From Rossellomorea vietnamensis (lineage in GTDB: Bacteria; Bacillota; Bacilli; Bacillales; Bacillaceae_B), in contig NZ_CP104558.1 of the NCBI RefSeq assembly GCF_025398035.1, forward strand, positions 372,001 to 436,000: 64,000 nucleotides of DNA, written 5' to 3'. Position numbers and translations under genes: made by a program. Below, piece by piece: positions 52,165-56,160 of this stretch; positions within the stretch are counted from its first letter, which is position 1; each line of letters starts with the position of its first letter. A model generated the notes under the pieces. That model did no database searches. It had not been told where the DNA came from and worked only from the letters and a program-made list of their open reading frames with translations.

Positions 52165-53397
52165 TTAAACCCAATCACCAGCTTTAAAAATCGGTTCAAT
52201 CGTGCCATCCGCCTTTTCACCGTCTATATCCAATTGGGATGAGCCGATCATGAAGTCCACATGGATCATGCTTTCGTTAAAACCAATCTCCTGCAACTCT
52301 TCAGGCGTCATCGTCTTACCACCCTCTACACATACAGAAAGAGCCCTGCCCAGTGCAATATGACAAGATGCATTTTCATCAAAAAGAGTGTTGTTGAAAA
52401 CGATATTTGTATTGGAAATGGGGGAATCGTGAGGTACCAATGCTACCTCCCCCAAATAAGATGCACCTTCATCCGTTTCGAGTAAGTTCTTTAACGTTTC
52501 ATAGCCTTCTTCTGCCGTATAATCAATGACTTTCCCTTCCTTGAAGGTCAACGAGAAATTCTTGATAAGTGTGCCACTATAATTAAGAGGCTTTGTACTC
52601 GAAACAACACCATTCACGCCATATTTATCTGGAATTGAAAACACTTCTTCCGTCGGGAGGTTCGGAACGAAAGGAATCCCTTTATCATTGGTGAATTGAG
52701 CACTGATCCATTTGGTTTTAGGATGGAATTCGATGCTCAGGTCTGTTCCAGGTCCTTTATAATGAAGCTTTTTATACTTCCCTTTGTTTAAACGATCGGC
52801 GTTTTCATTAAGGTTATCGATATGAGCTTCCCATAATTCGACGGTATTTTCCTGATCCGTTCTGGTGGTATAAAAGATGTTCTCCCACAGTTTGGTAAAA
52901 GCGTCTTCTTGAGAAAGATCTGGAAAAACGGTTTGAGCCCATTCCACTGTTGGTATCGCAGCGATCAACCAGCTGATCTTTCCTCCTCCGATATAAGCTG
53001 AAAAGTCTTTCATCGCTTCTGCAGAAGTTTTGTTCAACATAGCGACACGCGCAGGGTCTGAGTCCCTTAACAGGGAAGGATTCGGGGCAGCTAAGTTCAA
53101 TAACGCCACATTGTTCTCTGCCATTTCAATATATCCTTTTGCCTTCCATCCAGGGAACTCTTTCAATCCTTCTTCGGCAGATTTCTCCAGGCGGATCTTT
53201 TTCAATTCATCATCATAGAAATCCGTTAACACATTCAGTGCTCCTGCTTCGTATGCTTTCTCTGTTATCAGACGGACAAACTCGTATGATGTTATAGGTG
53301 CTGATATCATCAGTTCCTGTCCCTTTTGCAGATTCAATCCGACTTCTACAATCAAATCTGCATATCTTCCTAAGTTTCTCTCAAATGCTTGTTTCAT
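52165..53397 (-). CDS. M29-family aminopeptidase (AmpS/PepS-like)
   Basis: Cytoplasmic metallo-aminopeptidase, 410 residues, with the M29 features: GTDLSIEF, FVPNLPTEEVFSIPD (metal-binding Glu), GEVALVPHDSPIS, NTLFDENASCHIALG (His/Asp ligands) and VHVDFMIG. Releases N-terminal residues from peptides. It lies just downstream of the peptide-gene/HTH-TPR regulator cluster, on the same strand but after a terminator, so any link to peptide turnover is speculative. Confidence 0.92.
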   Translation of the reverse strand: MKQAFERNLGRYADLIVEVGLNLQKGQELMISAPITSYEFVRLITEKAYEAGALNVLTDFYDDELKKIRLEKSAEEGLKEFPGWKAKGYIEMAENNVALLNLAAPNPSLLRDSDPARVAMLNKTSAEAMKDFSAYIGGGKISWLIAAIPTVEWAQTVFPDLSQEDAFTKLWENIFYTTRTDQENTVELWEAHIDNLNENADRLNKGKYKKLHYKGPGTDLSIEFHPKTKWISAQFTNDKGIPFVPNLPTEEVFSIPDKYGVNGVVSSTKPLNYSGTLIKNFSLTFKEGKVIDYTAEEGYETLKNLLETDEGASYLGEVALVPHDSPISNTNIVFNNTLFDENASCHIALGRALSVCVEGGKTMTPEELQEIGFNESMIHVDFMIGSSQLDIDGEKADGTIEPIFKAGDWV

Positions 53398-53482
53398 TAG
53401 TAAATCCCCCTAATATATGTATTCAAACATAACTATATCTCTTTTTTCGGAAAATTTCATCGATTAAGATTATATTTTAATA

Positions 53483-53512
53483 TAAAAAAGACCGGTCCAT
53501 AACTGGACCAGT
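53483..53512 (-). terminator. Terminator after the secreted-peptide gene
   Basis: ACTGGTCCA/TGGACCGGT, 9-bp stem (one G-U) with a 4-nt loop, followed by CTTTTTTAT on the minus strand, 12 nt beyond the peptide stop. Confidence 0.88.
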
Positions 53513-53523
53513 GCTGATTATGT

Positions 53524-53640
53524 TTATAGTTTAGTTGAGAACGGCGGGAATTCTTCTTCGTTTGAGTTGACGACGATCACACCGGAAAGGGCCATGGCGG
53601 TGAGGCTGGTGATGATCAATAATTTTCTCAGCTTTTTCAT
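53524..53640 (-). CDS. Secreted signalling peptide precursor (NprX/PapR-like)
   Basis: A 38-residue precursor. Residues 1-6 are basic (MKKLRK), 7-24 hydrophobic, and 25-38 a polar tail, NSNEEEFPPFSTKL, from which a short mature peptide (perhaps the last 5-9 residues) could be cut. AAGGAGGTG lies before ATG, so translation should be strong. It begins 15 nt after the stop of an HTH-TPR regulator and ends at a terminator; this regulator-then-peptide order is that of plcR-papR and nprR-nprX. The sequence differs from both. Such peptides are exported by Sec, processed and re-imported by an oligopeptide permease. The peptide role is inferred from structure and position. Confidence 0.75.
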   Translation of the reverse strand: MKKLRKLLIITSLTAMALSGVIVVNSNEEEFPPFSTKL

Positions 53641-53655
53641 TTTTTAACCACCTCC

Positions 53656-54912
53656 TTATAAAGGCAGCATTTCTTCATAAATGATATTGGCTTCATTTAG
53701 ATGGAATGCAGCAAGTTTGTATTTCCTCATTCTTTGATAATATTGGCCAAGGAATTTAGAATACTCAGCATATAATAGAAGAGAGCCGTTTTTCTTAAAG
53801 AAAGACAGGGCATACTCCTTCATGAAATTCTCAAATCCATTAGGAAATTCATTCAGTGCAAATTGATAATAAGATAATTGATAAAATTTATCGGGATATC
53901 TTTCTTTTGAGCAAAGCTCCAGTCCTTTTGATAACCAGAATTGAACTTCTGAACGTTGATTCAGTTTATAATGCTCTTTGACAAGGGAAAGAATCGAATA
54001 GAGTTTTCCTTCATCATCAGATTCCTTTAATTCAATGCTCCTCACAAAATGCTGGATGGCTTCATCACTTTTATTCATGAAAGATTTAAGGTATCCGAAA
54101 TTTTGCTCGATCTTGGAATGCAAAGACGTATACTCAATGGACTGGGAAATGAAATTAGCCCATTCATAATGCTTTACGGCGTCCTCACTATTCCGGATTC
54201 TCCGATAGCAGATGCCCAACAGTAAATGAACCTCTGCACACCTTTTCTGGTAATAGACACCCTGAAAAATGGAGAGGGCTTTCTCACCGTAGTAAATGGC
54301 TAAACGATACATGTGTAAACGTGTCAGCACTAAACTGAATAGATAGTATAAATCTGCCCTTTCTTCTTCGTTTACAACATTTCCAAGCACAAAGTAAGTT
54401 TCGGCTTCTTTCAATTCACCTTTAGCTTTTTCATATTCCTTCATTAGATAGTAGTAATTTCCTTTATACTTATGAAAGTAAAATTTATGCTTGTCGGATA
54501 GGTCCTTATAATTCGATTGAATATGACTGAAATGACTGAAAGCTTCCGTTAAATCACCCCTTAATAATTGAACCCGGAAGCAGAGGATTTTATAAAAAAA
54601 ATGGGGGGATAGATCATCGGTTTGATCAAGATCCCTTTGGATGAGCTTGTGAGTGGAACGTGCTTCATCCTCTTTATTCCAAAGCAATGCATGATTCCAC
54701 TTTTCGAGAAGCTCATTCAACTGGTTAGGGCGATCAACTGGATGATTTAAACCCAGGCGCTCGCACAGCAAATGGACGATATCATCTGAAGGTGTCACTT
54801 GGTTATTTTCGAGTTTCGATAGATAAGATATTGAAATGATGCCTTTAGATAGATTTTCTTGAGTTAACTTTTGTTTGAGTCTGTGGAAACGAATCTTAGA
54901 ACCAATCTTCAT
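53656..54912 (-). CDS. RRNPP-family HTH-TPR regulator (NprR/PlcR-like)
   Basis: A 418-residue cytoplasmic regulator. Residues about 5-55 form an Xre-type HTH (LTQENLSKGIISISYLSKLE, close to the NprR/PlcR pattern), and the rest is a run of about nine TPR repeats (for example DKHKFYFHKYKGNYYYLMKE, CAEVHLLLGICYRRIRNSED) that would bind a peptide. NprR is 423 residues. GAGGAG lies 9 nt before the chosen ATG; an upstream frame start lacks a site. It is cotranscribed with the peptide gene downstream. Binding of the peptide is expected to change dimer form and DNA binding; the regulon is unknown. Confidence 0.87.
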   Translation of the reverse strand: MKIGSKIRFHRLKQKLTQENLSKGIISISYLSKLENNQVTPSDDIVHLLCERLGLNHPVDRPNQLNELLEKWNHALLWNKEDEARSTHKLIQRDLDQTDDLSPHFFYKILCFRVQLLRGDLTEAFSHFSHIQSNYKDLSDKHKFYFHKYKGNYYYLMKEYEKAKGELKEAETYFVLGNVVNEEERADLYYLFSLVLTRLHMYRLAIYYGEKALSIFQGVYYQKRCAEVHLLLGICYRRIRNSEDAVKHYEWANFISQSIEYTSLHSKIEQNFGYLKSFMNKSDEAIQHFVRSIELKESDDEGKLYSILSLVKEHYKLNQRSEVQFWLSKGLELCSKERYPDKFYQLSYYQFALNEFPNGFENFMKEYALSFFKKNGSLLLYAEYSKFLGQYYQRMRKYKLAAFHLNEANIIYEEMLPL

Positions 54913-55140
54913 ATGATTCTTCTCCTCTTGAAGGATATAAAGTTCCAACCTATGGACCAGAATATTGTACATAATAACATAAATGAAGCTAAAATATTTG
55001 GAATATTCCTATAATTATATTTTTTAATGGGTATAAAGGAGGGATTTGGCTACTTGAATGGTTTTATTTCACAATGATTCACTCATAAATATCCTTTGTT
55101 ATAATGAATCTGGTGAAAGTTATTAAGGAGGATGGTCATT

Positions 55141-56160
55141 GTGATTGATTTACGAAGTGATACGGTAACAAAACCAACGGAGGAAATGAGACGGGCAGCT
55201 TATGAGGCTGAAGTGGGGGATGATGTGTATGGTGAAGATCCTACTATCCTAAGGCTTGAAAAGGAAGCAGCACGTCTTCTTGGGAAAGAGGAAGCATTAT
55301 TCGTCACAAGCGGGACCCAGGGGAACCAGATTGCGGTATTGACCCATACCAGACCGGGAAATGAAATTCTATTAGAAACGGATTCGCATATCTTTTACTA
55401 CGAATCAGGAGCAGTTGCGGCTTTCGCAGGCGTTCAAACCCGGACGATTAAAGGGACCAATGGTGAAATGGACCCCGGTGAAATAGAAGCTGCCATTCGT
55501 ACGGAAGATCAGCATTTTCCTGAAACGGGTTTGATTTGTCTGGAAAATACCCATAACCGTGCGGGAGGGGCAATCGTTTCACCGGAAAACATGCAAGCCA
55601 TTCATACCATTGCCAGGAAGCACTCCATTCCGGTACATATTGATGGAGCCAGGCTCTTTAATGCTGTTGCCGCAAGTGGTCGTGACGTAAAGGAGTTCAC
55701 GGATCACTGTGATACCGTTCAAATTTGTTTATCGAAAGGCTTGGGTGCACCGGTGGGTTCAATCATTGCAGGTGACAAACACTTTATTAAGAAGGCTAGA
55801 AAGTGGAGAAAACGTCTGGGTGGGGGACTTAGACAAGCTGGGTTGATTGCGGCTCCAGGATTGATTGCCTTGAACAAGATGAGAGGACGTTTGTCAGAAG
55901 ATCATGAGAAAGCAAGATTCCTCAAAGAAACCTTTCAAACATGTAACGGGATTGAAATTATCAATGAAGTGGATACTAATATTGTGGTGGCTGATGTATC
56001 AGGCACAGGGATGACAGCAGCACAGTTTGTAGAAGAATTAGAGAGAAAAGGAATATTGGCCGTGACGTTTGGACCGACCCTGGTCCGTTTCACGACTCAT
56101 TATGATGTCTCTATGGAGGACATAGGGGAAGTGTCCCGGATACTTAAGGCTCAATTTTAG
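55141..56160 (+). CDS. Low-specificity L-threonine aldolase
   Basis: PLP enzyme cleaving threonine and allo-threonine to glycine and acetaldehyde. 339 residues: IDLRSDTVTKPT start, EDPTI, substrate/PLP region HIDGARLFNA and the PLP lysine in LSKGLGAPVGS. GTG start 9 nt after AAGGAGG; the ATG nine bases before it abuts the site and is rejected. Divergent from the HTH-TPR regulator. Confidence 0.94.
   Translation: MIDLRSDTVTKPTEEMRRAAYEAEVGDDVYGEDPTILRLEKEAARLLGKEEALFVTSGTQGNQIAVLTHTRPGNEILLETDSHIFYYESGAVAAFAGVQTRTIKGTNGEMDPGEIEAAIRTEDQHFPETGLICLENTHNRAGGAIVSPENMQAIHTIARKHSIPVHIDGARLFNAVAASGRDVKEFTDHCDTVQICLSKGLGAPVGSIIAGDKHFIKKARKWRKRLGGGLRQAGLIAAPGLIALNKMRGRLSEDHEKARFLKETFQTCNGIEIINEVDTNIVVADVSGTGMTAAQFVEELERKGILAVTFGPTLVRFTTHYDVSMEDIGEVSRILKAQF

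Follow-up and report, generated by a model that had tools for sequence, protein, structure and literature searches.

Among the RRNPP systems of the Bacillus cereus group, NprR-NprX is the closest described counterpart of the locus considered here, and PlcR-PapR resembles a second system encoded elsewhere in the same chromosome. In the former, a receptor with a helix-turn-helix (HTH) domain and a nine-repeat-type tetratricopeptide repeat (TPR) domain is encoded directly 5' of, and on the same strand as, a short propeptide gene. In B. thuringiensis, PlcR-PapR is reported to activate both nprR and nprX, whose own autoregulation is reported to be absent (PMC4147580). A survey with RRNPP_detector looked for this layout in complete Firmicutes genomes and chromosomes (7,974 in all) and describes 11 known and 21 new subfamilies, among them one NprR cluster (PMC10075063). 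The stretch analysed here, referred to as the window, comprises 64,000 nucleotides of Rossellomorea vietnamensis (contig NZ_CP104558.1, positions 372,001 to 436,000; genome in a single 4.52-Mb contig) and carries on its minus strand, at 53524..54912, a receptor gene followed by a gene for a 38-residue peptide. The two genes appear to constitute an RRNPP peptide quorum-sensing operon that is probably controlled by a PlcR-like regulator, encoded outside the window, through a box at 55004..55019. The identification of a receptor–pheromone pair of the RRNPP type is well supported by the gene layout, the NprR-like fold and the conserved adjacent propeptide.

The receptor gene (53656..54912, minus strand) encodes 418 residues plus a stop codon, with an alternative longer in-frame start at 54972. 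Pfam assigns HTH_3 to residues 9–56 (E 5.8e-8) and TPR_12 to residues 185–252 (E 1.1e-12), and a predicted single-chain model has a TPR superhelix of NprR build at approximately residues 60–418. NprR is the best match both in a sequence search of solved structures and in a fold comparison of the model, with Rap proteins as the next best folds. PlcR gave no match in the sequence search up to E 1 and is not among the 50 fold matches listed for the model, an absence that by itself is no evidence. The length and the TPR repeats, seen by Pfam and in the model, agree with those of RRNPP receptors (250–500 residues), and the HTH domain combined with the NprR-type superhelix assigns the protein to the NprR subfamily; it falls outside the PlcR subfamily, whose members are closest to PlcR and have an adjacent PapR-like propeptide. 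The original prediction of an HTH–TPR receptor with a 38-residue peptide gene 15 nt downstream is borne out by the open reading frames (ORFs), Pfam and the sequence, and of the NprR/PlcR layout that it proposed the NprR build stands in sequence and fold and the PlcR build does not.

A 15-nt gap (53641..53655, minus strand; GGAGGTGGTTAAAAA) containing the ribosome site GGAGGTGG separates the receptor gene from the propeptide gene (53524..53640, minus strand), whose product is MKKLRKLLIITSLTAMALSGVIVVNSNEEEFPPFSTKL. The product begins with MKKLRK, continues in a hydrophobic stretch and ends in the tail NSNEEEFPPFSTKL; the basic N-terminus and hydrophobic stretch may represent a Sec-type secretion signal. 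Pfam gave no match, and the best NCBIfam match, that to the PhrK pheromone family, is below threshold (E 0.032; 14.5 bits, with a cut-off of 35). Among 36 genomes of the genus, the receptor is present in 34 at 46–100% identity (split across two contigs in G016); in G022 it is reduced to the last 77 residues, and in G030 an orthologue is lacking (best match 27%). All 34 loci with a receptor have an ORF of 37–46 residues starting 4–15 nt past the receptor stop, and since the position is kept in every one of them the short ORF is more than a chance frame. In 27 of these loci (receptors approximately 60–100% identical) the propeptide tail contains [NP]EE[ED]FPP[FY]S; the final residue is L in 20 and Q in six, and one tail, that of the truncated locus L024, stops at K, the terminal Q being restricted to receptors at most 68% identical. 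The other seven propeptides, beside receptors of 46–47% identity, have the core [ED]EDLPP and a variable end.

The 27 FPP-type loci comprise 26 distinct DNA versions, in which the ratio of the proportions of nonsynonymous (pN) and synonymous (pS) differences amounts to 0.33 for the signal part and 0.225 for the tail, with many synonymous differences (pS approximately 0.68), as for a conserved ORF under purifying selection. Residues E28, E29, F31, P32, P33 and S35 are invariant despite codon changes. The most conserved part of the propeptide, EEEFPPFS (residues 28–35; 53536..53559, minus strand), is invariant or nearly so and is likely to be the core of the mature signal. A propeptide in G184 (L289), next to a receptor relative only 34% identical, holds the unit FAGDAEHPDPTSI twice, which suggests that the mature signal of the present locus lies around EEFPPFS; multi-copy propeptides are described in these families (PMC9765709). 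A short ORF not conserved beside homologous regulators had been named as a refuting outcome, which the loci of the genus do not show, and the difference of the tail from known signals that had been stated holds (EE[ED]FPP[FY]S versus SKPDIVG in NprX). The expectation that the peptide would covary with its receptor held at most in part, the core being almost fixed while the receptor drops to approximately 60% identity. What had been called strong translation comes down to the presence of the ribosome-site sequence. Likewise, the proposed closing terminator is matched by a correctly placed hairpin with a T-rich tail (53491..53512, minus strand), but the scanned 3.5 kb contains two terminator-like sites against 2.4 expected by chance, so that the hairpin alone is weak proof.

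The 16-bp box upstream of the receptor gene, TATAATTATAGGAATA (55004..55019, minus strand), is a predicted site of the PlcR-like regulator. With the truncated locus L024 excluded, each of the 33 regions upstream of the receptor contains TATA-N8-AATA, at −100 to −213 and in 31 cases as the exact TATAATTATAGGAATA, and the alignment of 29 loci contains the near-constant block TATAATTATAGGAATATTC. A similar box, TATAAYTNTARGMATA, is found between −39 and −32 in all 35 loci of a PlcR-like gene found in 35 of the 36 genus genomes (none at E 1e-30 in G009, which is 84% complete). The homologue examined from G003 (P0003) has PlcR as its best solved relative (2qfc, E 2.4e-15) and matches Pfam RNPP_C (E 8.3e-21). 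In 31 of the 35 loci a script found a divergently oriented small ORF with [ED]LP near its end, this motif being part of the rule; it missed G007, G026, G027 and G030, of which G007 does carry an ORF with DPLPPVY units. With PlcR as its closest relative and an adjacent PapR-like propeptide, this second receptor belongs to the PlcR subfamily. The corresponding propeptide of the window genome holds a single copy and ends in TDLPGWAY, and PapR7 of B. cereus is given as ADLPFEF (PMC6568020). Eight of the 31 propeptides hold three to five copies of the unit ELPSVY or ELPPVY (L145–L150, L153 and L155), that of G003 being ELPSVY. The multiple copies and the divergent gene orientation set this system apart from PlcR-PapR, which it resembles in its receptor, its [ED]LP-type propeptide ends and its box.

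The box could alternatively belong to the NprR-type receptor itself, which would then autoregulate its operon and also control the PlcR-like gene and an exoprotease. In favour of this explanation, the box is present at the receptor promoter in all 33 upstream regions and is most constant there, and the receptor was initially taken as its owner. This assignment was dropped given that PlcR-like genes carry the box, also outside the genus where no close receptor exists. Within the genus, the PlcR-like gene of G030 has the box although a receptor orthologue is absent there. Outside it, 20 PlcR-like loci from 18 genomes, part of those listed, were read: the 18-mer TATAAYTNNARGMATATT is present with at most one mismatch at −32 to −42 in 17 of 17 loci representing the best copy per genome (53–65% identical), and the best sites of the other three loci (51%, 56% and 49% identical) have five, two and three mismatches, respectively. 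Seven of those 17 genomes contain a receptor relative at E <=1e-20, of 25–36% identity, and ten contain none. The box moreover matches in length and layout the PlcR box TATGNANNNNANCATA, TATG-N8-CATA (PMC4147580), the source that also reports nprR-nprX as non-autoregulated. Ownership by the receptor is thus unlikely. From its occurrence at PlcR-like genes without a receptor orthologue and its PlcR-box layout, the PlcR-like protein is the most likely binder, with the receptor operon as one of its predicted targets.

Three promoters in the window genome account for the four perfect matches to TATAAYTNNARGMATATT: those of the receptor operon, the PlcR-like gene and an S8-family protease (two matches); the box offers a short list of candidate promoters. 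At no more than one mismatch there are 11 matches, compared with two for a control pattern. The protease has an open frame of approximately 1450 residues (Peptidase_S8, E 5.2e-59) and is present in 30 of the 36 genomes; 28 of the 30 fetched loci were read upstream (L244 and L245 unread), and the box is found with zero to three mismatches at −226 to −233 in 25 of these, being missing in G026, G027 and G034. A one-mismatch site adjoins a gene named by eye as glpD-like in seven fetched genomes and the window genome. The longer 21-mer AAATATAAYTNTAGGMATATT has two perfect matches genome-wide, at the receptor operon and at 3088282, with none at one mismatch, one at two and nine at three, against eight in total for a control pattern.

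Several observations weigh against the proposed pairing and its control. The residues of NprR that contact NprX (R126, W167, H201, N306 and D309) align with G119, Y160, R198, G302 and Y305 of the receptor; because they are not conserved, the grounds for predicting that the neighbouring peptide binds are its position and its conservation. In a wider-family sample of 34 distant NprR-like loci (approximately 24–34% identical, some within the genus itself), 17 have no propeptide by a rule requiring a ribosome site, a basic start and a hydrophobic stretch in an ORF just downstream; the other 17 have one, compared with six of 1700 base-shuffled controls. TATR-N8-MATA in the same orientation occurs in two of these 34 loci, where approximately 0.1 is expected in each, or about the chance level. 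For nine receptor relatives outside the genus, all sites within 400 nt upstream have at least three mismatches. Finally, the binder of the box is deduced solely from co-occurrence.

With Rap proteins as the next best folds, an alternative is that the receptor mainly modulates the sporulation phosphorelay as Rap proteins do, an action relieved by the peptide, and contributes little as a transcription factor. Two of the four residues required for the effect of NprR through Spo0F (D107, Y118, E188 and Y223; PMC4970707) are kept in the alignment, as D100 (20 D and six E among 26) and Y220 (26 of 26), and W72 aligns with NprR W79. The other two are changed, C111 replacing Y118 and R185 replacing E188, and the receptor has a well conserved HTH domain, which Rap proteins lack. 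This explanation therefore appears improbable. That the short ORF instead encodes a small membrane protein or a leader with another function and no secreted signal, as its length, hydrophobicity and lack of any family match above cut-off might suggest, is very improbable given the stronger constraint on its polar tail than on its hydrophobic part, the position of the core in the 46–47% clade directly after an SxSA or AFA-type stretch that resembles a signal-peptidase site, and the duplication of FAGDAEHPDPTSI within one ORF of a distant relative.

In the favoured model of an operon under PlcR-like control, the 38-residue product would be exported and processed by cleavage and trimming into a short acidic peptide around EEFPPFS, which would re-enter the cell through an oligopeptide permease and bind to the receptor's TPR domain. 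The peptide-bound receptor would then act through its HTH domain on target promoters. The PlcR-like sensor, responding to its own [ED]LP peptide, would control the operon, most likely by activation, as well as the exoprotease, while the operon's own peptide would set the state of the NprR-type receptor. Such predicted control would be wired in the same way as that reported for nprR-nprX in B. thuringiensis. If correct, PlcR-type control of an NprR-type operon extends beyond the B. cereus group, and a chromosomal signal is kept almost unchanged in its core even as receptor identity falls to approximately 60%, unlike the strain-specific NprX of the B. cereus group, for which seven pherotypes are reported (PMC4147580). 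An acidic-[LF]-P core is common to both peptide families of Rossellomorea ([ED]LPxxY and EE[ED]FPP). A broader proposal, a two-tier relay with a PlcR-like above an NprR-type receptor common to the B. cereus group and Rossellomorea, with a near-constant signal in the latter and, given the shared core, receptors that may each partly read the other's signal, is speculative and rather unlikely.

Among the papers listed in literature searches, none on this Rossellomorea system was found. The pair had been called new, which holds to a limited extent, as RRNPP pairs, including an NprR cluster, have been catalogued at scale (PMC10075063). The names Rossellomorea, vietnamensis and aquimaris are absent from the main text of that survey, and Rossellomorea pairs may be among its rows. 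With RRNPP systems forming a large known class, the apparent near-constancy of the signal and the predicted relay are the points of interest here.

The named relatives with the receptor (14 loci) are R. vietnamensis, R. aquimaris and R. arthrocnemi, together with strains recorded under Bacillus sp. or Rossellomorea sp. An M29 peptidase gene lies downstream of the pair in 33 of 34 loci, the contig of the remaining one (L002) being too short, and a threonine-aldolase-type gene adjoins it in 28 of the 34, as far as the fetched sequence extends; the locus is therefore a stable chromosomal one. These flanks differ from those of NprR-NprX, and no adjacent nprA is present within the window. Upstream of the receptor, a presumed extended −10 element, TGTTATTAT (54971..54979, minus strand), is recognizable from sequence and alignment, and the hexamer AAATAT 17 nt before it is a poor −35. 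A promoter scan upstream of the receptor gave no sigma-70-like site on the same strand; promoters under PlcR control are described as combining a sigma-A-like −10 with a divergent −35 (PMC4147580). Rfam gave no match within 53300–55200.

G022 (L056, G022:C22:98000-102500) keeps an intact peptide ORF beside its receptor remnant and has no box at two or fewer mismatches; as judged from its sequence, it is a natural signal-without-receptor state. Among the 17 distant propeptides, [DE]xP occurs near the C-terminus in ten, four times as HPDP, and in no control, the motif having been picked afterwards and being descriptive, and at L053 (G055:C1:1356200-1360500) an ORF with three copies of DELYPDP lies 3' of a distant NprR-like receptor. 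Near-matches of a 19-mer and single sites at L128, L135, L136 and L143 were set aside as possible chance occurrences. A one-mismatch box of the window genome, at G000:C1:2906724-2906741 (L144, L266), lies approximately 200 bp from a WXG100/YukD-like gene pair, and a similar site is present in G023; with these two genomes as its basis, type VII secretion is not claimed as a target. None of 15 fetched PlcR-like paralogues carries TATAAYTNTARGMATA; paralogues form tandem arrays at G027:C1:3715556-3722915, G026:C1:3616397-3620960 and G034:C10:93985-98566. In L142, L158 and L267 a 106-residue protein (MMKxxxMKVNPLYS...) is encoded next to the PlcR-like propeptide, and its gene is often accompanied by a second box at approximately −400 from the PlcR-like gene.
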